Shown: positions 8,941 to 58,108 of the stretch, piece after piece
Numbering within the stretch: position 1 is the stretch's first letter
Layout: every line of letters starts with the position of its first letter
DNA from: Megaustenia siamemsis
Lineage: Eukaryota; Mollusca; Gastropoda; Stylommatophora; Ariophantidae
Reading direction: 5' to 3'
NCBI GenBank assembly: GCA_032433765.1
Contig: JAVIAB010000092.1
Span: 108,008,396 to 108,072,395, forward strand
DNA: 64,000 bases
The notes under the pieces: generated by a model
Told to the model about the DNA's origin: nothing
The model's input: only the letters and a program-made list of their open reading frames with translations
Database searches by the model: none
Position numbers and translations under genes: made by a program

Positions 8941-10560
8941 TGGAATTGTGGGTCCATAAATCAACGATAGTCCATTCATGAAAAGCAACTGTCGCCCTCC
9001 GTAAGAGGCAGGAGAGATGGACGCAGCCACCCTGGTGGAACGTAGAAGTCGAGGAAGCTTGGCGGAGCAAGAGACAAACGGCCAAGACATGGCAGAAAGC
9101 CAGAAGGAATGGAAGAACACAACCTAAGCTCTTGAAGCGTCTGAAAGTAGAAGTCGACCCAAAAATAATGCACTTTAAACTATGCGCTAAGCAGGCTAAT
9201 GATGCCAAATGGGATGACTTCTGTAAAAAAGTGTGCTCAGAAAAATCGTTAGCCACATTCTGGCGCCTTCATCAGGCCATGAATGGCACAACGCGACACA
9301 GAGGCATACCAGACTTTCAGAGCACAGGCCGGATGTGGCACAAATCTGATGAGAGCAAAATGAAGGCCCTGCTTGCCCGCTACATTGAGCAGACGGACCA
9401 AAGAAATGAGGCTGTAAGAATGAGGATGGGGGATCGCTGTCAAAATTGTGTAAGAATATAGGGCCGGAAGAAGATCTCACAATCACAACCGATACCATTC
9501 GCACGGCGCTTAAAAGGTCACACAATACTGCTCCTGGTACAGATGGTGTTCGGTACGATGACATAGGCGATTTAGCTGACGACGACTTGACAAAACTGGC
9601 CAATGAGTTTAATGCCAGTATTCGGAGTGGCCAGATTAATGATAGTGGCTACACAGCTACTTACAACGCTACCGAAGCCAAACAAGGACCATTCTCAGAT
9701 CAGTGCCTACAGAATCATCACAATGCAGAACACTGCGGGCAAGCAGCTGGAGAAAATAGTTGCCCGTGTCCTCACCTGTCACCTTGAACAGAAACGCGTA
9801 TTCCCATCCACACACGGAGGTTATAGATATAACAAAGAGACATGGCTCAATGCGGCAGTCTTTGCCTATGACGTCTTCGAAGGCTTCCACAGACGGGAGG
9901 TGACATATGCTGCTGCTATAGATCTGGAGGATGCATACAACAGGGTACCATTTGAATATCTCATGATATGCTCCTCAAACTGGCGGTGCACCCCTTCCTC
10001 ATTAGATGGATCGCCGCGGCATTGTTTCAGAGGAAGGTGATACTAAGATGTGGAAGTTGGTCATCCGAGCCAACATCCATTTGTCTGGGCTGCCACAAGG
10101 CTCACCATTGTCGCCAGTTCTATTTAATGTGTACCCAACACCGATCACGGAAAAACAGCAGGATGGGAGGGGAAGAACTTTGACTTTTGCTGATGATATT
10201 CTGGTATTTCGACAGGGAAGAGACAGAAGTGAAATCGCCTCCACAATGCAAGACGAACTCGATCGCATTTCTTCCTGGTGTGGGGTTTCAGGTGCCTTGG
10301 TTAATCCTAATAAAGCATCAGTTTCATTGTTCTCCCCTTAACAATCATATCGTTAATACGACCACACTGGTAGTACGAATGGGAGCTGATGAAGTGACCA
10401 GGGACAAGTTGATGACATACCTCGGAGTTAAGTTTGATCGCAGCCTGTGTTTTCGGGACCACGTTGACCATGTGATAACAAAATCCCGCAAAGGATTAGT
10501 CGCCTTGAAGGTCATGGCAGCTGCCTACATCGAGCAGAGGCTGCTTACTCTTCTGTTCTA
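8941..10560 (+). pseudogene. LINE-B relic, RT region
   Basis: This is the post-endonuclease linker and reverse transcriptase of an RNase H-bearing LINE, broken by at least four frameshifts. In order: the linker WWNVEVEEAWRSKRQTAKTW (about 9034-9093); the segment ending FWRLHQAMNGTTRHR (about 9257); HNTAPGTDGVRYDDIGDLAD; TTLPKPNKDHSQISAYRII with the PKP motif; AAAIDLEDAYNRVPFEYL with the first catalytic Asp (about 9910-9960); GLPQGSPLSPVLFN (about 10087); and the catalytic box LTFADDILVF (about 10180-10210). RT copies the element RNA at a chromosomal nick. The order and wording of motifs fit the I/R1/Jockey superclade. The FADD box itself is intact. The endonuclease domain is absent or unreadable. 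Confidence 0.85.
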
Positions 10561-11690
10561 GGGATTAGTCCTCGCACCAATCGAATATGCCCTGGCCATT
10601 CTTACTGTCAGTACGACTCAAGTTGATAGGCTGGAGAAAATACAAAATGAAGCCATGCGCATTATCCTGGAATGTACGAAGGACACTCCCTGTGTAGCAA
10701 TGAGGTATCTTCTTGACTTTCCAACCATGAATGACAGAATCAAGGTCTGGAGAGCACGAGCATACCTGAAGATTAGTACAGATACAGAGCATCCATTGCA
10801 CGACGTGCTCAACACAGTGAAAGGTACCAGGTTAAAAAGAGGCAAATCATGGGTGGGCCGAGCAGAAGATGTCATCAAACAGGTCTGTGGACTTACAAAT
10901 ATCAGCGTTGGTGAGGACTGGATACCGGTGCCTATGTCATTCAAGGGGACTTTCTCGTGTATTGACACACTCGACAGGAAAAGTAGGGAACAGAACCCGG
11001 TCGTGGTTAATGCTGAGGTCAACGGTCTCATCTGCGATAACACCGATGAGAAAGATGCAGTCATCTATACAGGCGGATCTGTAATACGACACCAAAGAAG
11101 TGCATGGGCATTTACAGCACGCTCGGCAGGCAGAATAGTCAAGGAAGACAGTGGTGCATACGTCATGACCACGAGTAGCATGACAATGGAGGCGATGGCA
11201 GTGACCAAGGCATTCAAATGGTTAGTCACAAGACTACACCCACGCATGTATACTGAGTGATTCGATGAGCACTATTAAAAAAGTGGAGGCGGGCTCTGTA
11301 CGCATGCAATGGGTAGAGTCGTTGGAGAAATCCAAAATACGTAAGGTCACCTTGGTCTATGTCCCTGGAAATGCGGTAGTTCGAGGAAACGAAAGAGCGG
11401 ACAGGTTGGCTAGCTGCGCTGTCGTTGAGGACGGGCAAGCATTGGATCGGGCGGACATCATCAATGCCCTCCGAGATTTGGGAAGAGCACATGACTTCGA
11501 TAAACACAGATCCACGTCACTTCTTCGGATGATAGAAATGGGAGTTAAGATGGGCACAGCCAGAAATGAGAAACTTAGTGGCCGTGTAAGAAGACTTATC
11601 AACCAAAATAGAACTGAAGTCGTCAGTCGCTGGACACTGAGGGAATTGCTGAGGAGGGGATCTGAGCACCTATGGACATGTTCGGAGTGA
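10561..11690 (+). pseudogene. LINE-B relic, connection and RNase H
   Basis: This continues the element at 8941. A 201-codon open stretch (10655-11260) starts in the connection region (EAMRIILECTKDTPCVAMRY) and enters RNase H at VIYTGGSVIRHQRSAWAFTA. The first catalytic Asp of the usual TDGS motif has become Gly. The Glu (TMEAMAVTKAFKWL) is present. After a frameshift the third Asp is near 11259-11261, in codons reading SDSMSTIKKVEAGS. The last block reads YVPGNAVVRGNERADRLAS, where the usual catalytic His of the PGH motif is Asn. The RNase H is therefore doubly disabled. The tail ends RGSEHLWTCSE, followed by ATGATGATGACC. A minus-strand fragment of the same family is at 25225-25485. Confidence 0.85.
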
Positions 11691-11889
11691 AATGATGATG
11701 ACCCGCAAATAACTCAATAACTCAAATTGATGAGAATGAAAGTGCCTTATATAAGATGATCGTACCACGCTCTTTGTAACGAAAAACACTGTTTTTTGTC
11801 GTATATTTGTATATGATGGGCTAACTGTTCCAATGTTCGGCTTGCCGTATTTAATCTCATGTTTATTTTTGTATCTATTTTGTTCTAAT

Positions 11890-13566: not shown

Positions 13567-14635
13567 CAAAGCTCAATCAATATCTAACGTTCAACATCAA
13601 CCCCAACACTATTATCTCTCCACCAAACACAATCTGTACCCAACATTCACCATCAACCCCAACAATATTATCTCTCCACTAAACACAACCTGTACCCAAC
13701 ATTCACCATCAACCCCAACAATATTATCTCTCCACCAAACACAACCTGTACCCAACATTCACCATCAACCCCAACAATATTATCTCTCCACCAAACACAA
13801 CCTGTATCCAACATTCACCATCAACCCCAACAATATTATCTCTCCACCAAACACAATCTGTATCCAACATTCACCATCAACCCCAACAATATTATCTCTC
13901 CACCAAACACAATCTGTACCCAACATTCACCATCAACACCAACAATATTATCTCTCCACCAAACACAACCTGTATCCAACATTCACCATCAACACCAACA
14001 ATATTATCTCTCTACCAAACACAATCTGTACCCAACATTCACCATCAACACCAACAATATTATCTCTCCACCAAACACAATCTGTACCCAACATTCACCA
14101 TCAACCCCAACAATATTATCTCTCCACTAAACACAATCTGTACCCAACATTCACCATCAACACCAACAATATTATCTCTCCACCAAACACAATCTGTACC
14201 CAACATTCACCATCAACACCAACAATATTATCTCTCCACCAAACACAATCTGTACCCAACATTCACCATCAACACCAACAATATTATCTCTCCACCAAAC
14301 ACAATCTGTACCCAACATTCACCATCAACCCCAACAATATTATCTCTCCACCAAACACAACCTGTACCCAACATTCACCAGCAACCCCAACAATATTATC
14401 TCTCCACCAAACACAACCTGTACCCAACATTCACCATCAACCCCAACAATATTATCTCTCGACCAAACACAACCTGTATCCAACATTCACCATCAACCCC
14501 AACAATATTATCTCTCCACCAAACACAATCTGTATCCAACATTCACCAGCAATCCTAACAATATTATCTCTCCACCAAACACAATCTGTATCCAACATTC
14601 ACCAGCAATCCTAACAATAACTATGAGAGCTATAG
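13567..14635 (+). repeat. 56-bp minisatellite, ~18 units
   Basis: Units carry CCAACATTCACCATCAA, CAACAATATTATCTCTCCA and AAACACAATCTGTA. Variation is mostly CC/CA in CAACCCCAAC and C/T in ACCTGTA. Single-copy relatives lie at 14640-14760 and 15581-15680, which look like the ancestral sequence. Confidence 0.95.
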
Positions 14636-35546: not shown

Positions 35547-36249
35547 TTGTCAGGTTTCCGTGATGTTGTTGTCACTCTATCGTCAACTTGGCGGGCTTGT
35601 CAGGTTTCCGTGATGTTGTTGTCACTCTATCGTCAACTTGGCGGGCTTGTCAGGTTTCCGTGATGTTGTTGTCACTCTATCGTCAACTTGGCGGGCTTGT
35701 CAGGTTTCCGTGATGTTGTTGTCACTCTATCGTCAACTTGGCGGGCTTGTCAGGTTTCCGTGATGTTGTTGTCACTCTATCGTCAACTTGGCGGGCTTGT
35801 CAGGTTTCCGTGATGTTGTTGTCACTCTATCGTCAACTTGGCGGGCTTGTCAGGTTTCCGTGATGTTGTTGTCACTCTATCGTCAACTTGGCGGGCTTGT
35901 CAGGTTTCCGTGATGTTGTTGTCACTCTATCGTCAACTTGGCGGGCTTGTCAGGTTTCCGTGATGTTGTTGTCACTCTATCGTCAACTTGGCGGGCTTGT
36001 CAGGTTTCCGTGATGTTGTTGTCACTCTATCGTCAACTTGGCGGGCTTGTCAGGTTTCCGTGATGTTGTTGTCACTCTATCGTCAACTTGGCGGGCTTGT
36101 CAGGTTTCCGTGATGTTGTTGTCACTCTATCGTCAACTTGGCGGGCTTGTCAGGTTTCCGTGATGTTGTTGTCACTCTATCGTCAACTTGGCGGGCTTGT
36201 CAGGTTTCCGTGATGTTGTTGTCACTCTATCGTCAACTTGGCGGGCTTG
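35547..36249 (+). repeat. 50-bp satellite, 14 identical units
   Basis: The unit contains GTCAGGTTTCCGTGATGTTG, TTGTCACTCTATCGTCAACT and TGGCGGGCTT. All units seem identical by eye, unlike every neighbouring array. The first part of the unit is homologous to the adjacent 41-bp array. Confidence 0.97.
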
Positions 36250-38520
36250 TTTAATGTTGTCGTTCTCTGATTATATCAGCTTTCCAGATGTTAATCTATC
36301 GTACTCTGGGCATATCAGTTTTCGTTGATGTTGTCATCGTCGTACTGTCAGTGTTCCATGATATTGTCATTGTCGTACTCTGATATGGTGTCAGGTTTCC
36401 GTGATGTTGTCATCGTCGTAATCTGGTGATGTCAGGTTTCCGTGATGTTGTCATCATTGTACTCTGGTCATGTCAGGTTTCTGAGATGTTGTCATCGTCG
36501 TACTCTCGTCATGTCAGGTTTCCGTGGTGTTGTCATTATCGTACTCTGGTCATGTCAGGTTTCCGTGGTGTTGTCATTGTCGTTCTCTGGTCATGTCAGG
36601 TTTCTTTGGTGTTGTCATTGTCGTACTCTGGTCATGTCAGGTTTCCGTGGTGTTGTCATCGTCGTACTCTGGTCATGTCAGGTTTCCGTGGTGTTGTCAT
36701 CGTCGCACTCTGGTCATGTCAGGTTTCCGTGGAGTTGTCATCGTCGTACTCTGGCCATGTCAGGTTTCCGTGATGTTGTCATTGTCGTACTCTGGCCATG
36801 TCAGGTTTCCGTGATGTTGTCATCGTCGCACTCTGGTCATGTCAGGTTTCCGTGATGTTGTCATTGTCGTACTCTGGCCATGTCAGGTTTCCGTGATGTT
36901 GTCATCGTCGCACTCTGGTCATGTCAGGTTTCCGTGATGTTGTCATCGTCGTACTCTGGCCATGTCAGGTTTCCGTGGAGTTGTCATTGTCGTACTCTGG
37001 CCATGTCCAGTTTTCGTGGTGTTGTCATTATCGTACTCTGGCCATGTCCAGTTTTCGTGGTGTTGTCATTATCGTACTCTGGCCATGTCAGGTTTCCGTG
37101 ATGTTGTCATTGTCGTACTCTGGTCATGTCAGGTTTCCGTGATGTTGTCATCATCGTACACTGGTCATGTCAGGTTTCCGTGGTGTTATCATTGTCGCAC
37201 TCTGGTCATGTCAGGTTCCGTGGTGTTATCATTGTCGCACTCTGGTCATGTCAGGTTTCCGTGGTGTTATCATTGTCGCACTCTGGTCATGTCAGGTTTC
37301 CGTGGTGTTATCATTGTCGCACTCTGGTCATGTCCGGTTTCCGTGGTGTTGTCATTGTCGTACTCTGGCCATGTCCAGTTTTCGTGGTGTTGTCATTGTC
37401 GTACTCTGATATGGTGTCAGGTTTCCGTGGTGCTGTCATTGTCGTACTCTGGCCATGTCCAGTTTTCATGGTGTTGTCATTGTCGTACTCTGGCCATGTC
37501 CAGTTTTCGTAGTGTTGTCATTGTCGTACTCTGGCCATGTCCAGTTTTCGTAGTGTTGTCATTGTCGTACTCTGGCCATGTCCAGTTTTCGTGGAGTTAT
37601 CATTGTCGTACTCTGGCCATGTCCAGTTTTCGTGGAGTTATCATTGTCGTACTCTGGCCATGTCCAGTTTTCGTGGAGTTATCATTGTCGTACTCTGGCC
37701 ATGTCCAGTTTTCGTGGAGTTATCATCGTCGTACTCTGGCCATGTCCAGTTTTCGTGGTGTTGTCATTGTCGTACTCTGGCCATGTCCAGTTTTCGTGGA
37801 GTTATCATTGTCGTACTCTGGCCATGTCCAGTTTTCGTGGAGTTATCATTGTCGTACTCTGGCCATGTCCAGTTTTCGTGGTGTTGTCATTGTCGTACTC
37901 TGGCCATGTCCAGTTTTCGTGGTGTTGTCATTGTCGTACTCTGGCCATGTCCAGTTTTCATGGTGTTGTCATTGTCGTACTCTGGCCATGTCCAGTTTTC
38001 ATGGTGTTGTCATTGTCGTACTCTGGCCATGTCCAGTTTTCGTGGAGTTATCATTGTCGTACTCTGGCCATGTCCAGTTTTCGTGGTGTTGTCATTGTCG
38101 TACTCTGGCCATGTCCAGTTTTCGTGGTGTTGTCATTGTCGTACTCTGGCCATGTCCAGTTTTCGTGGAGTTATCATTGTCGTACTCTGGCCATGTCCAG
38201 TTTTCGTGGTGTTGTCATTGTCGTACTCTGGCCATGTCCAGTTTTCGTGGTGTTGTCATTGTCGTACTCTGGCCATGTCCAGTTTTCGTGGTGTTGTCAT
38301 TGTCGTACTCTGGCCATGTCCAGTTTTCGTGGTGTTGTCATTGTCGTACTCTGGCCATGTCCGGTTTTCGTGGTGTTGTCATTATCGTACTCCGTTCATG
38401 TCCGGTTTCCGTGATGTTGGCATTGTAGTACTCTGGTCATGTCAGGTTTCCGTGATGTTGGCATATTAGTACTCTGGTCATGTTAGGTTTCCGTGATGTT
38501 GGCGTCGTCGTACTATGATA
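36250..38520 (+). repeat. 41-bp satellite, ~52 units with subfamilies
   Basis: The unit carries CATGTCAGGTTTCCGTGATG or CATGTCCAGTTTTCGTGGTG, then TTGTCATTGTCGTACTCTGG. The left part is mostly the AGGTTTCC type and the right part mostly the CCAGTTTTCG type. GGAGTTATC and GGTGTTGTC versions are interspersed. All three plus-strand frames are open, giving a spurious 488-codon frame. Degenerate units extend to about 38875. Confidence 0.97.
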
Positions 38521-44164: not shown

Positions 44165-44815
44165 CAAAAACACTGACTGATCTACCTGGAAATGAGAGCC
44201 AACTGATTGATCTATCAGGAAATGAGAGCCAACTGATTGATCTACCTGGAAATGAGAACCACCTGACTGATCTACCTGGAAATGAGAACCAACTGACTGA
44301 TCTACCTGGAAATGAGAACCAACTGACTGATCTACCTGGAAATGAGAACCAACTGACTGATCTACCTGGAAATGAGAACCACCTGACTGATCTACATGGA
44401 AATGAGAGCCGACTGATTGATCTACCTGGAAATGAGAACCACCTGACTGATCTACCTGGAAATGAGAACCAACTGACTGATCTACCTGGAAATGAGAACC
44501 AACTGACTGATCTACCAGGAAATGAGAACCAACTGACTGGTCTACCTGGAAATGAGAACCAACTGACTGGTCTACCTGGAAATGAGAACCAATTGACTGA
44601 TCTACCTGGAAATGAGAACCACCTGACTGATCTACCTGGAAATGAGAACCAACTGACTGATCTACCTGGAAATGAGAACCAACTGACTGATCTACCAGGA
44701 AATGAGAACCAACTGACTGGTCTACCTGGAAATGAGAACCAACTGACTGGCCTACCTGGAAATGAGAACCAATTGACTGATCTACCTGGAAATGAGAACC
44801 AACTGATTGGTTCTA
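44165..44815 (+). repeat. 30-bp minisatellite, ~22 units with higher-order structure
   Basis: The unit is CTACCTGGAAATGAGAACCA plus ACTGACTGAT. A block of about six units (HLTD, QLTD, QLTD, QLTG, QLTG, QLTD) occurs twice in a row at about 44440-44620 and 44620-44800. Both strands stay open (222 codons plus, 283 minus), explained by the period of ten codons. I do not treat either as a gene. Confidence 0.95.
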
Positions 44816-45089: not shown

Positions 45090-47197
45090 CCCATGTTAAT
45101 AGTAGAAATAAGTACACGTGGCGGGGAATCAAATAGTAGAACTAAGTACACGTGGCGGGGAATCAAATAGTAGAACTAAGTACACGTGGCGGGGAATCAA
45201 ATAGTAGAAATAAGTACATGTGGCGGGGAATCAAATAGTAGAACTAAGTACACGTGGCGGGGAATCAAATAGTAGAACTAAGTACACGTGGCGGGGAATC
45301 AAATAGTAGAAATAAGTACATGTGGCGGGGAATCAAATAGTAGAACTAAGTACACGTGGCGGGGAATCAAATAATAGAACTAAGTACACGTGACGGGGAA
45401 TCAAATAGTAGAACTAAGTACATGTGGCGGGGAATCAAATAGTAGAACTAAGTACACGTGGCGGGGAATCAAATAGTAGAACTAAGTACACGTGGCGGGG
45501 AATCAAATAGTAGAACTAAGTACACGTGGCGGGGAATCAAATATTAGAACTAAGTACACGTGGCGGTGAATAAAATAGTAGAAATAAGTACATGTGGCAG
45601 GGAATCAAATAGTAGAACTAAGTACACGTCGCGGGGAATCAAATAGTAGAACTAAGTAGACGTGGCGGGGAATCAAATAGTAGAACTAAGTACACGTGGT
45701 AAGAATCAAATAGTAGAAATAAGTACACGTGGCGGGGAATCAAATAGTAGAACTAAGTACACGTGGCGGTGAATAAAATAAGTAGAAATAAGTACATGTG
45801 GCGGGGAATCAAATAGTAGAACTAAGTACACGTGGCAGTGAATAAAATAAGTAGAAATAAGTACATGTAGCGGGGAATCAAATAGTAGAACTAAGTACAC
45901 GTGGTGGGGAATACAATAGTAGAACTAAGTACACGTGATGGGGAATCAAATAGTAGAACTAAGTACGCGTGGCGGGGAATCAAATAGTAGAACTAAATAC
46001 ACGTGGCGGGGAATCAAATAGTAGAAATAAGTACACGTGGTGGGGAATCAAATAGCAGAAATAAGTACACGTGGTGAGTAATCAAATAGTAGAACTAAGT
46101 ACACGTCGCGGGGAATCAAATAGTAGAACTAAGTACACGTGGCGGGGAATCAAACAGTAGAACTAAGTACACGTGGTGGGGAATCAAATAGTAGAACTAA
46201 GTACACGTGGTAGGGAATCAAATAGTAGAAACAAGTACATGTGGCGGGGAATCAAATAGTAGAACTAAGTACACGTGGCGGTGAGTAAAACAGTAGAAAT
46301 AAGTACATGTGGCGGGGAATCAAATAGTAGAACTAAGTACACGTGGTGGGGAATCAAATATTAGAACTAAGTACACGTGGTGGGGAATCAAATAGTAGAA
46401 CTAAATACACGTGGCGGGGAATCAAATAGTAGAACTAAGTACACGTGGTGGGAAATCAAATAGTAGAAATAAGTACACGTGGTGGGGAATTAAATAGTAG
46501 AACTAAAAACACGTGGCGGGGAATTAAATAGTAGAACAAAAATACACGTGGCTTGGAACCAAATAGTAGAACTGAGTACACGTGGCGGGGAATTAAATAG
46601 TAGAACTAATTACACGTGGCGGGGAATCAAATAATAGATCTGAGTACAAGTGGCGGGGAATTAAATAGTAGAACTAAGTACACGTGGCGGGGAATCAAAT
46701 AGTAGAACTAAGTACACGTGGCGGGGAATTAAATAGTAGAACTAAGTACACGTGGCGGGGAATCAAATAGTAGAACTAAGTACACGTGGCGGGGAATTAA
46801 ATAGTAGAACTAAATAGACGTGGCGGGGAATCAAGTAATAGATCTGAGTACACGTGGCGGGGAATTAAATAGTAGAACTAAGTACACGTGGCGGGGAATC
46901 AAATAGTAGAACTAAGTACACGTGGCGGGGAATCAAATAGTATAACTAAGTACATGTGGCGGAGAATCAAATAGTAGAACTAAGTACACGTGGCGGGTAA
47001 TCAAATAGTACAACTAAGTGCACGTGGCGGAGAATGAAATAGTAGAACTAATTAAACGTGGTGGTGAATCAAATAGAAGAACTAAGTACACGTGATGGGG
47101 AATCAAATAGTAGAACTAAGTACACGTGGAGGGGGAATTAAATAGTAGAACTAAGTACAAGTGGTGGAGAATCAAATAGTAGAACTAAGTACACGTG
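45090..47197 (+). repeat. 34-bp minisatellite, left block, ~62 units
   Basis: Units carry AATCAAATAGTAGAACTAAG, TACACGTGGC and GGGG. Most units contain the palindromic hexamer CACGTG. Divergence between units is moderate and several subfamilies (TACATGTGG, CACGTGGTGG) are interspersed. The block stops at the palindromic element at 47198 and resumes in the same orientation at 56215. Confidence 0.97.
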
Positions 47198-47629
47198 AGT
47201 AGTAGTGGTGGCTGTGAACTCACTCCAAAAGTGGAATAACATGCACCGAAAGACAATAGATTTGGCACCGACTTTGCACCAAACATGCACCAAAACGGTG
47301 CAAAAAAAAAAAATTATTTTTTTTTCGAATTCGCGATTTTTTCGAACTTCATTATTTTTTTTTGGGGGGGGAATTTTTTTTTTTTTTTGGGGTTCGTCAG
47401 TTTGTCGAAACGGTCTACTGTTACTGAGAGCTTAACTCAGGTAAATTCAAAAGATCGTGTGCTAATCGGCTTATTGTCCGGTGATCGTCTCTCGCTGTGT
47501 GTTAAATGAAAATATTTGTGAAAGAGTATTTTAAAAGAGTATATTTGTGAAAGTAAAAATTCAGAATTATTTAAAAAATATGTATTTGTGAAAGTAAACT
47601 CAGAATTATTAAAAAAAAAAAAAAAAACA

Positions 47630-47680
47630 GTCTCCCTTCAGGATTCGAACACGGGTCTACTACGTGACAGGCCAGGCAAC
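47630..47680 (-). other. tRNA-Asp-like 3' half, left arm
   Basis: The minus strand reads GGCCTGTCACGTAGTAGACC and GTGTTCGAATCCTGAAGGGA. It resembles the anticodon arm (GTC), variable loop and T arm of a tRNA-Asp. The acceptor and D arm are not recognisable, so it is a fragment or a SINE head. Confidence 0.5.
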
Positions 47681-48421
47681 ATGTAAAAAAAAATGCTGAC
47701 AAGCAATAACATTGAAAGGTTAGTTTTGTCGAACGGTCTCCTGTGTTTCTGAGAGCTTAACCGCAGGTAAATTCAATAGAGACTCGGTGCTAATCCGTGT
47801 CCGGTGATCGTCGCTCCGTGTCCGGTGATCGCCTCGCTCGTGTTAGAAATTTGTGAAAGAGTATTTTAAAAGAGTATGTGAAAGTGATAAATAAAAAATA
47901 CGAAATGTTTCAAAACGTTAAGAAATATAGTTAAATGTGATAAAACTGATTTTTAAAAAAGGCGAAATAATAAAAACTATGAAAAAAATAAGTTAACTGT
48001 AAATACTGACGGAAAACTGTATGTTAAGTCAAGAAACTGGAATGACATGGCAGCTTTTGTTGACTGGGCTAGTGGTACTTGAGGAATGCTATTGTTAGGA
48101 AAAATCGCTTATTATTGTCAAGGAATCGTGGTCATTGATAGGAAAATACGACTAGCGCGCGGGCGGGAACGAGTTGGTTGACACAGGTGTGTTATTGTAG
48201 TATCGCTAACATCATGTGCCAGGATAGCGGTTCTTGGGGAAAGATTATTGGTCGTGTGTGTTATCGCTACCAACATCATCATGTGTCGGTTAGTAAGGTG
48301 TGCTAATATTAAATAGTGACGCTCGCTCTTTCTCATTCAATGTAAAGCAAAACAAAAAATTCTATATTTCACAATTTTATTAATACATCATATATATATT
48401 ACTGTCCGGATGCTGATAATT

Positions 48422-48625
48422 TTAACCGTCTGGGTTTCCTACACAACCGCCCTCCATTTTGACAAAACCTTGATCAAAGCTGGAATAGGTAATCGAGGAC
48501 TTGGCAGAAACATCCTGGTCATCCATACTGGCTGCCGGAGCTGTCGTCTGATTAACAAGAGTGAGGTCCCCTTGGTTAACAGAAAAGGGCGTGTAGTTGA
48601 TGTTAGCATAAGCGTTTTCGAGACT
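48422..48625 (-). pseudogene. Coding-like 3' exon, left arm
   Basis: This is the mirror copy of 54781-54984, read on the minus strand. By eye the only difference inside the frame is a synonymous Ser codon (TCT here, TCA in the right arm). The reverse complement of AATAAA lies at 48376-48381, downstream of the stop. It is a second copy of the same fragment, so the arms carry it in divergent positions. Confidence 0.5.
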
Positions 48626-48654
48626 ACTTTAACGCCATGTGCCACCCTCAACAC

Positions 48655-49010
48655 CATCCTCTCTCTCTCTCTCTCTATCGCATATCCAAGCTAACTCAAG
48701 TCAAATAAAAATCATCACCAAGCCACACAAATTGACACATCATCATCATGTGCCACCCTCAACACTATCATCATCATCATCCACCCTCATCACCCCTTCC
48801 TATCATCATCATGTGCCACCCTCAACACTATCATCATCATCATCCACCCTCATCACCCCTTCCTATCATCATCATGTGCCACCCTCAACACCATCCTCTC
48901 TCTCTCTCTCTCTATCTCTCTATCACATATCCAAGCTAACTCAAGTCAAATAAAAATCATCACCAAGCCACACAAATTGACACATCATCATCATGTGCCA
49001 CCCTCAACAC

Positions 49011-49051
<41 letters not shown>

Positions 49052-49498
49052 GCATATCCAAGCTAACTCAAGTCAAATAAAAATCATCACCAAGCCACAC
49101 AAATTGACACATCATCATCATGTGCCACCCTCAACACTATCATCATCATCATCCACCCTCATCACCCCTTCCTATCATCATCATGTGCCACCCTCAACAC
49201 CATCCTCTCTCTCTCTCTCTCTCTCTCTATCACATATCCAAGCTAACTCAAGTCAAATAAAAATCATCATCATGTGCCACCCTCAACACCATCATCCCTT
49301 CATGTCCTATCATCATCATGTGCCACCCTCAACACTAGCATCATGTGCCACCCTCAACACTAGCATCATGTGCCTCAACACTATCATCTTGTGCCTCAAC
49401 ATCACCCTTCAAGTCCTATCATCATCATGTGCCACCCTCAACACCATCATCAGCCCTTCAGGTCCTAGCATCAAACCACACAAAGTATCAACCAGCGA

Positions 49499-49543
<45 letters not shown>

Positions 49544-49560
49544 ACATTCATGGTAAACCA
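48655..49560 (+). repeat. (CT)n and CATCATCATGTGCC arrays, left arm
   Basis: Several ~85-145-bp units combine (CT)n runs, GCCACCCTCAACACCATC, CATATCCAAGCTAACTCAAG and CACCAAGCCACACAAATTG. The last unit (about 49260-49555) is the one expanded threefold in the right arm. Confidence 0.9.
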
Positions 49561-49734
49561 AAACAAAATAAATCACTAAGATTTTACCACCATAACACAC
49601 AAATTTAGGGTCATATTAAAAAAAGTCGACCTTACAACCATACAAATCTACTCCCATACTCATAAAAGTTAGACACATCAAACAGATAATTACTTCCAAA
49701 CTCCAAAAAAAAAGTTAGACCAAATCACGCCTCC

Positions 49735-50085
49735 AGCGTTCTCTAACATTGCCTCGATCGTTCTTTAACATTGCCTCCAGCGTTCTTTAACATTGCCTCC
49801 AGCGTTCTCTAACATTGCCTCCAGCGTTCTCTAACATTGCCTCGATCGTTCTTTAACATTGCCTCCAGCGTTCTCTAACATTGCCTCGATCGTTCTTTAA
49901 CATTGCCTCCAGCGTTCTTTAACATTGCCTCCAGCGTTCTGTAACATTGCCTCGATCGTTCTTTAACATTGCCTCCAGCGTTCTCTAACATTCCCTCGAT
50001 CGTTCGTTAACATTGCCTCCATCGTTCTTTAACACTGCCTCCAGCGTTCTCTAACATTCCCTTGCTCGTTCTCTAACATTTTCAT
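49735..50085 (+). repeat. 22-bp array, left arm
   Basis: About 16 units alternate TCTAACATTGCCTCCAGCGT-TC and TTTAACATTGCCTCGATCGT-TC types. Confidence 0.95.
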
Positions 50086-50289
50086 TAGTTGGAGTCTTTG
50101 TGTTGCCTTCTTAGTGAGATTCTCTACGTGTTTCTTCAGGCTCAATTGTCAGTCTAGTTGTATTCCTAAAAAATCTACTTCCATACTGATACTAGTTAGA
50201 CACAATGATCAGATAGTTACATCCAAATCGCAAACATTTTACCCCAGAACACAAAAATTTAGGGTCATACTAAAAAAGTCGACCTAAAA

Positions 50290-51030
50290 ATCCCAAAGGG
50301 CAGAAACTTAGGAGGCAAGGGCAGAAACCTAGGAGACAAGGGCAGAAACCTAGGAGGCGAGGGCAGAAACCAAAGAGGCAAGGTCAGAAATCTAGGAAGT
50401 TGTGTTATAAAACAAGGAGGGAAGGTCAGAAACCTAGGAGGCATGGTCAGAAATCTAGGAAGCTGTGTTAGAAAACAAGGAGGGAAGGTCAGAAAGGACA
50501 TGCTCACCTATCGGAACTTTTGTCCCTCATATGCTATTTCAAAAGTTGTCTTCGTCAATTTAGGGAAGGTCAGAAAACTAGGAAGCAAAGGCTGAAAACA
50601 AGGAGGGAAGGTCAGAAACCTAGGAAGCAAAGGCTGAAAACAAGGAGGGGAGGTCAGAAATCTAGGAAGCTGTGTTAGAAAACAAGGAGGGAAGGTCAGA
50701 AACCTAGGAGGCATGGTCAGAAATCTAGGAAGCTGTGTTAGAAAACAAGTAGGCAAGGTGAGAAAACAAGGAGGGAAGGTCAGAAATCTAAGAGGCGAGG
50801 GCAGAAACCTAGGAGACAAGGGCAGAAACCTAGGAAGCAAAGGCTGAAAACAAGGAGGCATGGTCAGAAATCTAGGAAGCAAAGGCTGAAAACAAGGAGG
50901 CATGGTCAGAAATCTAGGAAGCTGTGTTAGAAAACAAGGAGGGAAGGTCAGAAACCTAGGAGGCATGGTCAGAAATCTAGGAAGCTGTGTTAGAAAACAA
51001 GGAGGCGAGGGCAGAAACCAAAGAGGCAAG
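50290..51030 (+). repeat. ~21-bp array, left arm
   Basis: Units such as GGTCAGAAACCTAGGAGGCA, GGTCAGAAATCTAGGAAGCT and GTTAGAAAACAAGGAGGGAA alternate in a complex order. A unique segment at about 50500-50565 interrupts the array. Confidence 0.9.
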
Positions 51031-51358
51031 GTCAGACATTTTCATTATTTGGAGTCTTTGTATTACCTTCTTAGTGAGATTCTCTACGTGTTTCTTCAAA
51101 AAGCTACTCTCATTCTCATACTAGTTAGACACATCGAACCGTTCGTTATTTCTAAAGCCCAAAAAAAAAGTTTGGCCAAATCACTAACAATTTACCCACA
51201 GAACAAAATAAATATAGACTCATATTAAAAAAGTCGACCTCAAAACCATAAAAATCTACTCCCACACTCATCTAAAAGTTACACCAAAACCGCACGAGAT
51301 TTGCACCGTGCAAAAACATGCACAAGTTTGACACGCGCACCAGTTTGGCACAATGCAC

Positions 51359-51456
51359 ATTCGTAAAGGGCGTAACAATCAGCATTCGTAAGGGGCGTAA
51401 CAATCATAAAAGTGATTTTTAAGTAATTTTTTTTTTTTTTTGGTATGGGGATGTTG
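51359..51456 (+). other. 98-bp loop between palindrome arms
   Basis: The loop holds two tandem copies of a ~25-bp unit (ATTCGTAAAGGGCGTAACAA, then ATTCGTAAGGGGCGTAACAA) and a poly(T) run. It has no counterpart in the arms. Confidence 0.85.
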
Positions 51457-51784
51457 GTGCATTGTGCCAAACTGGTGCGCGTGTCAAACTTGTGCATGTT
51501 TTTGCACGGTGCAAATCTCGTGCGGTTTTGGTGTAACTTTTAGATGAGTATGGGAGTAGATTTTTATGGTTTTGAGGTCGACTTTTTTAATATGAGTCTA
51601 TATTTATTTTGTTCTGTGGGTAAATTGTTAGTGATTTGGCCAAACTTTTTTTTTGGGCTTTAGAAATAACGAACGGTTCGATGTGTCTAACTAGTATGAG
51701 AATGAGAGTAGCTTTTTGAAGAAACACGTAGAGAATCTCACTAAGAAGGTAATACAAAGACTCCAAATAATGAAAATGTCTGAC

Positions 51785-52525
51785 CTTGCCTCTTTGGTTT
51801 CTGCCCTCGCCTCCTTGTTTTCTAACACAGCTTCCTAGATTTCTGACCATGCCTCCTAGGTTTCTGACCTTCCCTCCTTGTTTTCTAACACAGCTTCCTA
51901 GATTTCTGACCATGCCTCCTTGTTTTCAGCCTTTGCTTCCTAGATTTCTGACCATGCCTCCTTGTTTTCAGCCTTTGCTTCCTAGGTTTCTGCCCTTGTC
52001 TCCTAGGTTTCTGCCCTCGCCTCTTAGATTTCTGACCTTCCCTCCTTGTTTTCTCACCTTGCCTACTTGTTTTCTAACACAGCTTCCTAGATTTCTGACC
52101 ATGCCTCCTAGGTTTCTGACCTTCCCTCCTTGTTTTCTAACACAGCTTCCTAGATTTCTGACCTCCCCTCCTTGTTTTCAGCCTTTGCTTCCTAGGTTTC
52201 TGACCTTCCCTCCTTGTTTTCAGCCTTTGCTTCCTAGTTTTCTGACCTTCCCTAAATTGACGAAGACAACTTTTGAAATAGCATATGAGGGACAAAAGTT
52301 CCGATAGGTGAGCATGTCCTTTCTGACCTTCCCTCCTTGTTTTCTAACACAGCTTCCTAGATTTCTGACCATGCCTCCTAGGTTTCTGACCTTCCCTCCT
52401 TGTTTTATAACACAACTTCCTAGATTTCTGACCTTGCCTCTTTGGTTTCTGCCCTCGCCTCCTAGGTTTCTGCCCTTGTCTCCTAGGTTTCTGCCCTTGC
52501 CTCCTAAGTTTCTGCCCTTTGGGAT
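51785..52525 (-). repeat. ~21-bp array, right arm
   Basis: Exact mirror of 50290-51030 by matched coordinates (sum 102815). Confidence 0.9.
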
Positions 52526-52729
52526 TTTTAGGTCGACTTTTTTAGTATGACCCTAAATTTTTGTGTTCTGGGGTAAAATGTTTGCGATTTGGATGTAACT
52601 ATCTGATCATTGTGTCTAACTAGTATCAGTATGGAAGTAGATTTTTTAGGAATACAACTAGACTGACAATTGAGCCTGAAGAAACACGTAGAGAATCTCA
52701 CTAAGAAGGCAACACAAAGACTCCAACTA

Positions 52730-53080
52730 ATGAAAATGTTAGAGAACGAGCAAGGGAATGTTAGAGAACGCTGGAGGCAGTGTTAAAGAACGATGGAGGC
52801 AATGTTAACGAACGATCGAGGGAATGTTAGAGAACGCTGGAGGCAATGTTAAAGAACGATCGAGGCAATGTTACAGAACGCTGGAGGCAATGTTAAAGAA
52901 CGCTGGAGGCAATGTTAAAGAACGATCGAGGCAATGTTAGAGAACGCTGGAGGCAATGTTAAAGAACGATCGAGGCAATGTTAGAGAACGCTGGAGGCAA
53001 TGTTAGAGAACGCTGGAGGCAATGTTAAAGAACGCTGGAGGCAATGTTAAAGAACGATCGAGGCAATGTTAGAGAACGCT
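52730..53080 (-). repeat. 22-bp array, right arm
   Basis: Exact mirror of 49735-50085 with the same order of unit types. Confidence 0.95.
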
Positions 53081-53261
53081 GGAGGCGTGATTTGGTCTAA
53101 CTTTTTTTTTTGGAGTTTGGAAGTAATTATCTGTTTGATGTGTCTAACTTTTATGAGTATGGGAGTAGATTTGTATGGTTGTAAGGTCGACTTTTTTTAA
53201 TATGACCCTAAATTTGTGTGTTATGGTGGTAAAATCTTAGTGATTTATTTTGTTTTGGTTT

Positions 53262-53272
53262 ACCATGAATGT

Positions 53273-53315
<43 letters not shown>

Positions 53316-53576
53316 TCGCTGGTTGATACTTTGTGTGGTTTGATGCTAGGACCTGAAGGGCTGATGATGGTGTTGAGGGTGGCACATGATGATGATAGGA
53401 CTTGAAGGGTGATGTTGAGGCACAAGATGATAGTGTTGAGGCACATGATGCTAGTGTTAAGGGTGGCACATGATGCTAGTGTTGAGGGTGGCACATGATG
53501 ATGATAGGACATGAAGGGATGATGGTGTTGAGGGTGGCACATGATGATGATTTTTATTTGACTTGACCATGAATGT

Positions 53577-53608
<32 letters not shown>

Positions 53609-53872
53609 ATTTCGCTGGTTGATACTTTGTGTGGTTTGATGCTAGGACCTGAAGGGCTGATGATGGTGTTGAGGGTGGCACATGATGATGATAGGACTTG
53701 AAGGGTGATGTTGAGGCACAAGATGATAGTGTTGAGGCACATGATGCTAGTGTTAAGGGTGGCACATGATGCTAGTGTTGAGGGTGGCACATGATGATGA
53801 TAGGACATGAAGGGATGATGGTGTTGAGGGTGGCACATGATGATGATTTTTATTTGACTTGACCATGAATGT

Positions 53873-53908
<36 letters not shown>

Positions 53909-54160
53909 ATTTCGCTGGTTGATACTTTGTGTGGTTTGATGCTAGGACCTGAAGGGCTGATGATGGTGTTGAGGGTGGCACATGATGATGATAGGACTTG
54001 AAGGGTGATGTTGAGGCACAAGATGATAGTGTTGAGGCACATGATGCTAGTATTGAGGGTGGCACATGATGCTAGTGTTGAGGGTGGCACATGATGATGA
54101 TAGGACATGAAGGGATGATGGTGTTGAGGGTGGCACATGATGATGATTTTTATTTGACTT
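53262..54160 (-). repeat. Three ~300-bp tandem units unique in number to the right arm
   Basis: Units begin at about 53262, 53566 and 53862, each with ACCATGAATGTGAGAGAGA, a GA run, AATTTCGCTGGTTGATACTT and GGACCTGAAGGGCTGATGAT. The left arm has a single unit. Confidence 0.9.
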
Positions 54161-54472
54161 GAGTTAGCTTGGATATGTGATAGAGAGAGAGAGAGAGAGA
54201 GGATGGTGTTGAGGGTGGCACATGATGATGATAGGAAGGGGTGATGAGGGTGGATGATGATGATGATAGTGTTGAGGGTGGCACATGATGATGATGTGTC
54301 AATTTGTGTGGCTTGGTGATGATTTTTATTTGACTTGAGTTAGCTTGGATATGCGATAGAGAGAGAGAGAGAGAGAGAGAGAGGATGGTGTTGAGGGTGG
54401 CACATGATGATGATGTGTCAATTTGTGTGGCTTGGTGATTATTTTTATTTGACTTGAGTTAGCTTGGATATG

Positions 54473-54510
<38 letters not shown>

Positions 54511-54770
54511 GTGTTGAGGGTGGCACATGATGATGATAGGAAGGGGTGATGAGGGTGGATGATGATGATGATAGTGTTGAGGGTGGCACATGATGATGAT
54601 AGGAAGGGGTGATGAGGGTGGATGATGATGATGATAGTGTTGAGGGTGGCACATGATGATGATGTGTCAATTTGTGTGGCTTGGTGATGATTTTTATTTG
54701 ACTTGAGTTAGCTTGGATATGCGATAGAGAGAGAGAGAGAGAGAGAGGATGGTGTTGAGGGTGGCACATG
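54160..54770 (-). repeat. (GA)n and GATGATGATGTG arrays, right arm
   Basis: Mirror of 48655-49250; units combine GA runs with GGTGTTGAGGGTGGCACATG. Confidence 0.9.
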
Positions 54771-54780
54771 GCGTTAAGGT

Positions 54781-54984
54781 AGTCTCGAAAACGCTTATGC
54801 TAACATCAACTACACGCCCTTTTCTGTTAACCAAGGGGACCTCACTCTTGTTAATCAGACGACAGCTCCGGCAGCCAGTATGGATGACCAGGATGTTTCA
54901 GCCAAGTCCTCGATTACCTATTCCAGCTTTGATCAAGGTTTTGTCAAAATGGAGGGCGGTTGTGTAGGAAACCCAGACGGTTAA
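54781..54984 (+). pseudogene. Coding-like 3' exon, right arm
   Basis: An open stretch of 67 codons plus TAA with a balanced, protein-like composition. It starts SLENAYANINYTPFSVNQGD and ends FVKMEGGCVGNPDG. It follows an in-frame TAA and has no early ATG, so it looks like the last exon or captured 3' end of a gene rather than a complete one. AATAAA at 55025-55030, about 40 bp after the stop, could be its poly(A) signal. I do not recognise the family. The repeats around it are non-coding. Confidence 0.5.
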
Positions 54985-55729
54985 AATTATCAGCATCCGG
55001 ACAGTAATATATATATGATGTATTAATAAAATTGTGAAATATAGAATTTTTTGTTTTGCTTTACATTGAATGAGAAAGAGCGAGCGTCACTATTTAATAT
55101 TAGCACACCTTACTAACCGACACATGATGATGTTGGTAGCGATAACACACACGACCAATAATCTTTCCCCAAGAACCGCTATCCTGGCACATGATGTTAG
55201 CGATACTACAATAACACACCTGTGTCAACCAACTCGTTCCCGCCCGCGCGCTAGTCGTATTTTCCTATCAATGACCACGATTCCTTGACAATAATAAGCG
55301 ATTTTTCCTAACAATAGCATTCCTCAAGTACCACTAGCCCAGTCAACAAAAGCTGCCATGTCATTCCAGTTTCTTGACTTAACATACAGTTTTCCGTCAG
55401 TATTTACAGTTAACTTATTTTTTTCATAGTTTTTATTATTTCGCCTTTTTTAAAAATCAGTTTTATCACATTTAACTATATTTCTTAACGTTTTGAAACA
55501 TTTCGTATTTTTTATTTATCACTTTCACATACTCTTTTAAAATACTCTTTCACAAATTTCTAACACGAGCGAGGCGATCACCGGACACGGAGCGACGATC
55601 ACCGGACACGGATTAGCACCGAGTCTCTATTGAATTTACCTGCGGTTAAGCTCTCAGAAACACAGGAGACCGTTCGACAAAACTAACCTTTCAATGTTAT
55701 TGCTTGTCAGCATTTTTTTTTTACATGTT

Positions 55730-55777
55730 GCCTGGCCTGTCACGTAGTAGACCCGTGTTCGAATCCTGAAGGGAGAC
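55730..55777 (+). other. tRNA-Asp-like 3' half, right arm
   Basis: Mirror copy of the segment at 47630-47680. The T-loop TTCGAATC and the CTGTCACG anticodon loop are conserved. Confidence 0.5.
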
Positions 55778-56214
55778 TGTTTTTTATTTTTTATTTTTAA
55801 TAATTCTGAGTTTACTTTCACAAATACATATTTTTTAAATAATTCTGAATTTTTACTTTCACAAATATACTCTTTTAAAATACTCTTTCACAAATATTTT
55901 CATCTAACACACAGCGAGAGACGATCACCGGACAATAAGCCGATTAGCACACGATCTTTTGAATTTACCTGAGTTAAGCTCTCAGTAACAGTAGACCGTT
56001 TCGACAAACTGACGAACCCCAAAAAAAAAAAAAATTCCCCCCCCCCAAAAAAAAAAATAATGAAGTTCGAAAAAATCGCGAATTCGAAAAAAAATAATTT
56101 TTTTTTTTTTGCACCGTTTTGGTGCATGTTTGGTGCAAAGTCGGTGCCAAATCTATTGTCTTTCGGTGCATGTTATTCCACTTTTGGGGTGAGTTCACAG
56201 CCACCACTACTACT

Positions 56215-57038
56215 CACGTGGCGGGTAATTAAATAGTACAACTAAGTGCACGTGGCGGAGAATGAAATAGTAGAACTAAGTAAACGTGGTGGGGAATCAA
56301 ATAGAAGAACTAAGTACACGTGATGGGGAATCAAATAGTAGAACTAAGTACACGTTGAGGGGGAATCAAATAGTAGAACTAAGTACAAGTGGTGGGGAAT
56401 CAAATAGCAGAACTAAGTACATGTGGAGGGGGAATCAAATAGTAGAACTAAGTACAAGTGGTGGGGAATCAAATAGTAGAACTAAATACACGTGGCGGGG
56501 AATTAAATAGTAGAACTAAATACACGTGGCGGGGGATTAAATAGTAGAACTAAATACACGTGGCGGGGAATTAAATAGTAGAACTAAATACACGTGGCGG
56601 GGAATTAAATAATAGAACTAAGTACATGTGGCGGTGAATCAAATAGTAGAACTAAGTACACGTGGCGGGGAATCAAATAGTAGAACTAAGTACACGAGGC
56701 GGGGAATCAAATAGTAGAACTAAGTACACGTGGTGAGGAATCAAATAGTAGAACTAAGTACACGTGGTGGGGAATCAAATAGTAGAACTAAGTACACGTC
56801 GCGGGGAATCAAATAGTAGAATTAAGTACACGTGGCGGTTAATCAAATAGTAGAACTAAGTACACGTGGTGGGGAATCAAAAAGTAGAACCAAGTACATG
56901 TGGCGGGGAATCAAATAGTAGTACTAAGTACACGTGGAAGTGAATAAAATAGTTGAAATAAGTACATGTGGCGGGGAATCTAATAGTAGAACTAAGTACA
57001 CGTGATGGGGAATCAAATAGTAGAACTAAGTACACGTT
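56215..57038 (+). repeat. 34-bp minisatellite, right block, ~24 units
   Basis: Same unit and orientation as 45090-47197. Its first ~210 bp (56215-56424) repeat the unit order of the last ~210 bp of the left block (46987-47197) with about eight differences. It ends at a second AGTAGTA terminus at 57039. Confidence 0.97.
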
Positions 57039-57535
57039 AGTAGTATACAAGGGTGTATTTGATTATCATTTGGCCCGTAAATTAACAAAGATATATAGTA
57101 GGCGCGCGGCGCGCCTAATGTACTGTAGGCGCAGGGGGGAGTTAACCGTGACATTTCGTGTCGGGATGTTGACCGCTAGTCCCGGTGACCCGGAAGTGAC
57201 CTGTTTATGTCTGGTGTATGCTGACTTTGGAGTTCTTTATGTACTTGATCGTTAGTGATAGGTTTGTAGATTATACAACATCAATGAAAAACAGTCAATA
57301 TAAAACAGAAGACAAAGATATATTTTATTCTTTTATTATCTCAATAGGTGTATAACATACATTGATATTATATAACATTACAAAATACTCAGTACAGTGA
57401 GTCAATATATAGTACAAGGATAACAATTTTTATAGCTATGTAGTTGGGTGTCTGCTTAGCGTTGTGTCATAAATGAATCATACGGGGTGAAACTGTTAGA
57501 GATTCCTGGTTAGGCTAAGCTGGTAGTGTAAAGAG
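57039..57535. mobile_element. Putative Polinton/Maverick terminal region
   Basis: The minisatellite ends at CACGTT and the sequence changes to AGTAGTATACAAGGGTG. About 500 bp later the stop codon of a Polinton-type polymerase gene is reached. A near-palindrome TAGGCGCGCGGCGCGCCTA lies at about 57099-57117. On the minus strand AATAAA (about 57322) lies some 210 bp beyond the polymerase stop. The other terminus is not in the window, so the terminal inverted repeat cannot be verified. Confidence 0.55.
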
Positions 57536-57924
57536 TTAAATATCTAAAGGCGTAGTCGAGACGTTATCATCAGCTACCTTTCTTTTTATATAGAAATAGG
57601 AAAGAGCATTTCTTGTTTGACTGTAGGAAAATATGGAATTATTTAAGACTTTGAAACCTACATTTTTCCCACCCTTAGCCTTTTGCGTGGCGAGAACCTC
57701 TAAAAACATATCTTTATCTAATTTGTTGTGTTGCTTGCTTAGCCCTTTACAACTGATTTTATCGTAATCCCCACTACAATGGTACGTCTTACTACATAAG
57801 CTAACAAGAGCTGTCCCTTCGTACTCTAGTTTAAAAAGCCCGGGCGTTCGTTTGGTGTACGCTTTAACACCCTTACAGTTTATACAATCTGTCTTGCTAG
57901 TATGTTCATCGCAGCGATGGGTGT
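57536..57924 (-). pseudogene. Polinton/Maverick DNA polymerase B, C-terminal fragment
   Basis: The minus strand is open for about 130 codons ending in TAA at 57536-57538. It contains KTDCINCKGVKAYTKRTPGL, FKLEYEGTALVSLCSKTYHC, KISCKGLSKQHNKLDKDMF and SQTRNALSYFYIKRKVADDN. This wording is characteristic of the C-terminal end of protein-primed family B polymerases of Polintons and related viruses (established knowledge, from memory). The enzyme replicates the element from its ends. Only the end of the gene survives: the catalytic palm and exonuclease parts are absent, cut off at about 57925 by a minisatellite. There is no internal stop. Its position near a terminus fits Polinton layout. Confidence 0.75.
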
Positions 57925-58108
57925 ATGGAGGTCGCCTAGTGTGTAATAAGGGCTGTATAGGGGTCGTCTAGTGTGCCGTGATGGGTCAATCGAGGTCGGC
58001 TAGTATGTCGTGATGGGTGTACGGAGGTCGTCTAGTGTGTCATATTGGGTGTATAGAGGGCGTTTAGTGTGTCATGATGGTTGTATAGGGGTCGTCTAGT
58101 GTGTCATG
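57915..58108 (+). repeat. ~33-bp minisatellite, 6 units
   Basis: GTGATGGGTGTATGGAGGTC followed by GTCTAGTGTGTC, with considerable divergence. It replaces the upstream part of the polymerase fragment. Confidence 0.85.

Follow-up and report, generated by a model that had tools for sequence, protein, structure and literature searches.

The window analysed here, a 64,000-bp stretch of the genome of the gastropod Megaustenia siamemsis (contig JAVIAB010000092.1, positions 108,008,396 to 108,072,395), contains a 34-bp minisatellite that is interrupted at 47198-56214 by an element that is a palindrome over nearly its whole length (element A; Table 1). The two arms aligned with 14 substitutions in 4,148 columns (0.34%) and 10 gaps, and self-BLAST matched them in two pieces, one of 2,395 bp at 98.0% and one of 2,155 bp at 99.3%. 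The loop between them measures 99 bp as cut and 98 bp by the BLAST ends. The largest gap, of 594 bp, corresponds to two additional ~296-bp tandem units in the right arm. The arms carry CT-rich, 22-bp and 21/42/63-bp minisatellites.

Both ends of element A read AGTAGTAGTGGTGGCTGTGAACTCAC, in inverted orientation, with the earliest mismatch between them at 47224, and CACGTG abuts the element on both sides as an exact 6-bp repeat. The 34-bp array keeps its direction and phase on either side of the element, which together with the flanking CACGTG copies indicates that insertion duplicated the CACGTG of a single repeat unit. The two flanks matched each other directly at 88% and gave zero mirrored match. 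These results bear out the first-pass annotation, which had described a near-perfect palindrome of about 9 kb with arms of about 4.2 and 4.8 kb, a 98-bp loop and shared ends bordered by CACGTG, and had argued that a minisatellite running the same way on both flanks is not the product of a simple fold-back chimera.

Table 1. Features of element A, its surroundings and the hairpins of related elements (window positions unless another sequence is named)
Feature	Position	Strand	Basis
34-bp minisatellite, left flank	45098..47197	+	tandem-repeat scan
Target-site duplication CACGTG, left copy	47192..47197	+	sequence, duplication test
Left palindrome arm, 4,160 bp	47198..51357	+	self-BLAST, arm alignment
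Terminal segment TIR-A (AGTAGTAGTGGTGGCTG...), genome probe	47198..47660	+	40 full/near-full matches
66-residue 3' end of a reading frame, outward, AATAAA-type signal downstream (by eye)	48422..48622	-	
CT-rich / 63-127-bp tandem repeats, left arm	48659..49141	+	
22-bp minisatellite, left arm	49729..50080	+	
21/42/63-bp minisatellite, left arm, common to C1 palindrome	50296..51036	+	
Loop, kin to 136-bp loop units of relatives	51358..51456	.	sequence comparison
Right palindrome arm, 4,758 bp	51457..56214	-	self-BLAST, arm alignment
296-bp tandem block, 3 copies, two more than left arm	53262..54162	-	
Mirror copy of 66-residue reading frame, right arm	54784..54984	+	
Target-site duplication CACGTG, right copy	56215..56220	+	sequence, duplication test
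34-bp minisatellite, right flank, unchanged in direction and phase	56215..57037	+	
Second Maverick-like terminus (AGTAGTATACAAGGG...), not part of the 47-56 kb element	57039..57532	+	88% to C1 outer arms
C-terminal fragment of B-family-like DNA polymerase reading frame, beside second terminus	57536..57967	-	
AGT-ended hairpin	L010 1375-1514		
AGT-ended hairpin	P3 6797-6910 (L038 601-714)		
AGT-ended hairpin, half	L039 near 6681		

Copies of the element in the genome

Searching the 2.59-Gb genome (155 contigs) with the 463-bp terminal inverted repeat (TIR) segment of element A, TIR-A, gave 82 matches; the best 40 of 2,462 candidates were scored, and all counts are lower bounds. At least 40 full or near-full TIR-A ends were present at 91-100% identity. 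Thirty of them form 15 convergent pairs spaced 7,527-17,484 bp apart, six are single, and four are divergently oriented, all on contig C91 at 108.095-108.163 Mb (two inside the mirrored region described below and two beyond it). The termini read (AGT)3/(ACT)3 at all 30 TIR-A loci examined.

Nine of the 15 pairs were examined at both ends, with ~1.96 kb of each arm compared. In all nine, the ends were inverted over 1.2-1.96 kb at 97.4-99.0%, stopped at the identical TIR base and were enclosed by an exact 6-bp duplication: CACGTG (element A), GTCGTC, GGAGAA, GGCGCT, AACGTG, TACGCA, CAGAGG, GTCATG and GACGGG. The related palindromes C1 and P2, both located on contig C1 and described below, are bordered by AATGAT and CCGGAA, which raises the total to 11 of 11; two further elements were left out of this count, a palindrome at window-based 88014-96349 and P3, whose second end was not found. 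When the left and right sixmers of different elements were paired as a control, none of 110 were identical. The search that the first-pass annotation had proposed, for the same terminus with a fresh 6-bp duplication, thus recovered both. Insertion into a minisatellite did not turn out to be a rule for the family: a tandem array lies at the junction in only 3 of the 11 palindromes (element A on both sides, C1 on the left, C47 on the right) and not in the other eight, so tandem repeats are not required as a target.

The longest convergent pair, C106 (G000:C106:47370645-47388128; 17.5 kb, duplication GGCGCT), is Maverick-sized. A further copy read complete, L073, is 7.5 kb long, with arms 98.6-99.0% alike and a left-arm deletion of ~640 bp. 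The median divergence between elements was 1.27%, with the inflated distances of C106 included. Judged from these sequences, the window palindrome is a real, recent member of a multi-copy family of mobile elements that are palindromic over nearly their whole length.

A 301-bp probe around the 66-residue frame (48340-48640; 40 scored of 1,334 candidates) gave at least 40 matches, namely 16 convergent pairs and 8 singles. Copies of this region at 97% that had no TIR-A end among those scored were seen on C137 (43.7, 45.2 and 89.8 Mb), C116, C100, C91 (17.8 Mb) and C87 (49.0 Mb), and perhaps belong to an additional subfamily whose termini differ. The 14-mer AGTAGTAGTGGTGG was of no use for counting copies in the genome (3,148 forward and 3,879 reverse occurrences versus 3,333 and 2,956 for a control). 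Sampling 25 of its sites (6 + 19) yielded DNA relatives at three (L004, L037, L038), and a fourth site, L036, matched the polymerase-like frame described below at the protein level only.

Two of the nine pairs, C47 and C91b, have a more complex left side. From left to right they consist of the duplication, a TIR stub (~43 bp in C47, ~76 bp in C91b), the host DNA adjoining the right end in mirror image (99.5% over 440 aligned columns and 96.4% over 193, respectively), the full element, the same duplication and the right flank; GTCATG (C47) and GACGGG (C91b) were read outside the left TIR stub. By eye, 3 and 1 bases are shared at the switch points. The stub and the mirrored flank suggest that synthesis copied the right arm outward, passed the chromosomal junction and jumped back to the TIR. 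A single target duplication encloses the whole arrangement, which indicates that this copying took place at that site, either before the second end was joined or afterwards. Inverted duplications arising from fork stalling and template switching or microhomology-mediated break-induced replication (FoSTeS/MMBIR) likewise contain a mirror copy with few bases shared at the switch. C47 and C91b resemble them in the 1-3 shared bases, but differ in that the switch returns to the TIR inside one duplication. Mirrored flanks at some copies could also speak for chromosomal palindromes produced by host repair at inverted repeats, with no transposition involved. The shared TIR end base and the exact 6-bp duplications in nine of nine pairs contradict such an origin, to which we give almost no credence.

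Mirrored regions and the assembly

Past the end of the window, 120322-93072 repeats 64001-91291 in mirror image, with an identity that is mostly 99.9-100% but 98.2% in the piece containing the minisatellite, and a further flip occurs at about 120918. A window piece, 55177-58108, recurs in this downstream region at 99.45%, in both orientations. Taken together, window-based 64001-122000 of G000:C91 (L012-L015, L018, L019) is mirrored over more than 50 kb about ~92161, and is centred on another palindromic element with B-type ends. The mirror around 92161 was considered as part of the element and dropped, as the sequence flips again at 120918 with neither spacer nor TIR. It is probably an assembly fold-back or zig-zag, or a young inverted triplication. 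On C154, two TIR-A ends at 11366516 and 11527792 (L055, L045) are separated by 161 kb, and their flanks match in mirror orientation at 98.8% over 1.5 kb; this is another mirrored region, either real or assembled.

The downstream structure is of the kind that an assembly or read artefact, such as a fold-back chimera, would leave, and it lends this explanation of element A some weight. It leaves the element's own junctions untouched, however, and the signs of a fold-back artefact, mirrored flanks and the lack of a duplication of its own, are not those of element A. Its flanks are unmirrored, its duplication is exact, the minisatellite is in phase, its arms differ from each other, and independent copies carry their own duplications. 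An artefact is, in our judgement, very improbable.

Related palindromes and polymerase-like remnants

Two further palindromes share the (AGT)n//(ACT)n inverted termini. The arms of C1 (L009/L010) differ by 0.18% substitutions and a 350-bp gap; its terminus is AGTAGTATACAAGGG, and window 57038-57532 matches its outermost 500 bp at 88% identity. The arms of P2 (L039/L040) differ by 1.58% substitutions, and its ends are AGTAGTATGGGTGGCTG, one of them reading AATAGT. Core stretches of A, C1 and P2 are about 77-88% alike, far below the arm-to-arm likeness within each; where they match best, C1 and P2 diverge from A by about 11-23%. The shared core comprises 149-bp-type units (A, C1 and P2), 21-bp units (A and C1) and 136-bp loop units. 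The loop of element A matched these loop units over 65 bp at 82% in P2 and over 46 bp at 85% in P3, and a likeness to those of C1 was seen by eye. P3 (L041, L038, L042; G000:C1:44497000-44510500) has a Maverick-like terminus, 149-bp units, loop units and an AGT-ended hairpin.

In the related elements, this hairpin (~115-140 bp, ends AGTAGTAG) separates the arm units from the loop. Its flanks in P3 (CAACAAAAAGCT) are nearly inverted, and the C1 hairpin resembles TIR-A (92% over 74 bp). A nested insertion was considered and dropped, since the P3 flanks are near mirror images and no direct duplication was found by eye in C1 or P3; we count the hairpin as belonging to the core.

At the right edge of the 34-bp minisatellite, 57033-58108 holds a second Maverick-like terminus (CACGTT followed by AGTAGTATACAAGGG) together with the 3' end of a B-family-like polymerase frame, the 3' flank of which adjoins this terminus. 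An MDTDS motif occurs in several homologues of the frame, and one homologue bears the name DNA-directed DNA polymerase; the named polymerase relatives come from Nucella, Bradybaena and Holothuria. The polymerase fragments, searched alone or as alignments A1 and A2, had no relative in viral contigs.

One arm of P2 contains a 316-residue reading frame, and the other contains its broken mirror copy (179 + 137 residues). The relatives of this frame are P0021, termed transposase-like by its source, and P0022, and the two match 75 residues in both C1 arms. P0022 comes from a contig of 3,189 bp, as does P0014, which is homologous to the C-terminal fragment, and the two contigs may be one. The arm frame of P2 and C1 is therefore probably the front part of the same putative polymerase gene, and parts of a predicted gene are present in both halves of P2 and of C1. 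Element A itself has no polymerase remnant; the remnants lie in the arms of P2 and C1 and beside the second terminus.

Origin of the palindromic arms

Foldback elements such as FB, Galileo and the sea urchin TU have long inverted arms bearing repeats, and long inverted arms with tandem repeats are also present in element A. The first-pass annotation had considered a new kind of long-TIR or fold-back element. The mobile element, its minisatellite-filled arms and the 6-bp duplication stand; a wholly new kind does not, as Maverick-type ends and duplications are already published (PMC8097293) and relatives carry polymerase-like remnants. What is new beyond that annotation is the family, the polymerase link and the copying of host flank in two of nine copies.

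Vertebrate Mavericks are characterised by 6-bp duplications, (AGT)2//(ACT)2 ends, that is, AGTAGT//ACTACT, and TIRs of 46-1,447 bp with a mean of 402 (PMC8097293). The window family resembles Polintons/Mavericks in these termini, in the duplication length and in the B-family-like polymerase remnants of its relatives. It differs in that element A is 9 kb long compared to 12.7-24.6 kb in that source, in that its arms span nearly the whole element, and in that these arms are filled with tandem repeats; no intact gene was found. With the exception of ~99 bp the element is palindromic, and no asymmetric gene-bearing body lies between short TIRs. We therefore class it as a palindromic derivative of Polintons/Mavericks rather than a full Maverick. 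The AGT ends and 6-bp duplications, together with the lack of Tetris-type duplications, lead to the same assignment and likewise stop short of a proven Maverick.

A classical foldback of the FB, Galileo, Tetris or MULE type, moved by a cut-and-paste transposase, would share the long inverted arms filled with tandem repeats and the variable middle. In PMC4079207, Tetris has such arms, internal tandem repeats and a middle domain, appears to be non-autonomous, and is flanked by 8-10-bp duplications; most foldbacks are said there to be Mutator-like. The duplications here are 6 bp in 11 of 11 palindromes compared to the 8-10 bp of Tetris, the ends are of AGTAGT type, and related arms hold polymerase-like remnants (although P0021 is termed transposase-like by one source). 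A foldback of this kind is highly improbable.

Sequence comparison points to the following as the likely explanation: the element is a non-autonomous Polinton/Maverick-type element with a palindromic body, its arms kept alike by fold-back synthesis, and it is moved in trans. Two mirror-image copies of an end of the parent element, with captured tandem repeats, would flank a short loop. Autonomous relatives would supply the integrase and polymerase that mobilise the element in trans, and 6-bp duplications would form on insertion. Fold-back DNA synthesis would both create the palindrome and keep its arms alike: a strand would copy one arm, turn at the loop and write the other arm. A strand copying an end already joined to the chromosome would enter host DNA and return to the TIR via 1-3 bp of microhomology. 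The AGT repeats and the polymerase remnants suggest that copying of the ends may be protein-primed. Terminal AGT repeats suit the jump-back initiation of protein-primed polymerases, as in adenovirus. The mechanism of Polinton excision, replication and integration is, to our knowledge, not known from experiment.

The ~325-bp duplication common to both C106 arms, absent from the left arms of the other eight pairs, counts for copying of one arm from the other. It also counts for the main rival, an ordinary non-autonomous Maverick with long TIRs, whose arms would be kept or made alike by gene conversion and template switching after insertion, with no fold-back intermediate. The stub and mirrored flank of C47 and C91b can likewise be described as template switching within a copy that was already in place, and in 5 of 10 pairs the arms were no nearer to each other than to another copy. 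Such conversion would leave unexplained how 4-kb arms with gene 3' ends, compared to vertebrate Maverick TIRs of 46-1,447 bp (PMC8097293), came to lie in both halves in the first place, and arm differences of 594 bp (A) and ~640 bp (C123) remain unconverted. We consider this rival rather unlikely.

Several observations weigh against fold-back synthesis in a Polinton/Maverick-type element. An expectation that the partner arm would always be the nearest relative failed: over 1,150-bp ends, 4 of 10 pairs had it as the strictly nearest sequence, one pair showed a tie, and in five another sequence was nearer, where the ten include two fragments of the mirrored region, both among the four. This gives no proof of arm-to-arm copying at each insertion. 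The partner arm is often not nearest because the family is young and star-like, and the ~20% distance of C106 in this comparison is mostly an alignment effect of its duplication. Host flank could have been copied in C47 and C91b after insertion. The palindrome at window-based 88014-96349, which has B-type ends, is situated within the suspect mirrored region; its flanks are mirrored and it lacks a direct duplication, and no mirror arm was found for P3, part of whose right side reads N. Searches of the protein collection, Pfam, PDB and viral contigs returned no homologue for the 66-residue arm frame, the one frame searched with regard to capsid, ATPase and protease genes. Pfam gave no polymerase domain in the polymerase-like fragments. 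When the profile of the C-terminal fragment was compared with solved structures, its 26 weak matches were all DNA/TNA polymerases, some of B type, at E values of 0.012-0.86, which is above the usual cut-off. No integrase, capsid or complete polymerase was seen, with no integrase search made and no genome-wide polymerase result obtained, and no autonomous parent element was seen in the sequence read.

Adenovirus symmetric palindromic recombinants and snap-back defective genomes are protein-primed and combine one genome end with foreign repeat DNA in mirror image. The window family differs in being chromosomally inserted, inherited and multi-copy, and protein priming is suggested here by the ends and remnants. 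More tentatively, and as a possibility that may well fail, the family could be a snap-back satellite, passed on by inheritance, of a protein-primed virus-like element, in which every copy is remade by copying one arm from its partner, at least sometimes after the first end has been joined, with host flank mirrored in before the second joining. If so, one-ended fold-back completion would be a source of new palindromes and captured minisatellites. With the terms used, we found no description of such a pathway in the literature searched. In a literature search whose scope did not extend to subscription papers or Repbase, neither a phrase for a palindromic or non-autonomous Polinton/Maverick nor Polinton together with fold-back and hairpin was found.

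Fold-back synthesis in a Polinton/Maverick-type element would make this young palindromic family, with two copies that carry their own mirrored host flank, a sequence record of a copying pathway. It would also be a route by which virus-like elements in a genome of animal type form near-perfect palindromes of great length and carry minisatellites along. The family further suggests where assemblies may fold back.

Across the window, no tRNA genes or Rfam families were found; a possible tRNA-like B-box, noted by eye at about 47640, was discarded. Two copies of a sequence resembling a non-long-terminal-repeat (non-LTR) retroelement, with reverse-transcriptase-like frames by eye, lie at 9480-11728 and at L012 7415-9655 and are 93% alike. 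The window is also rich in long minisatellites with units of 22-56 bp (e.g., 7266-8090, 13586-14619, 35547-38514 and 44172-44806).

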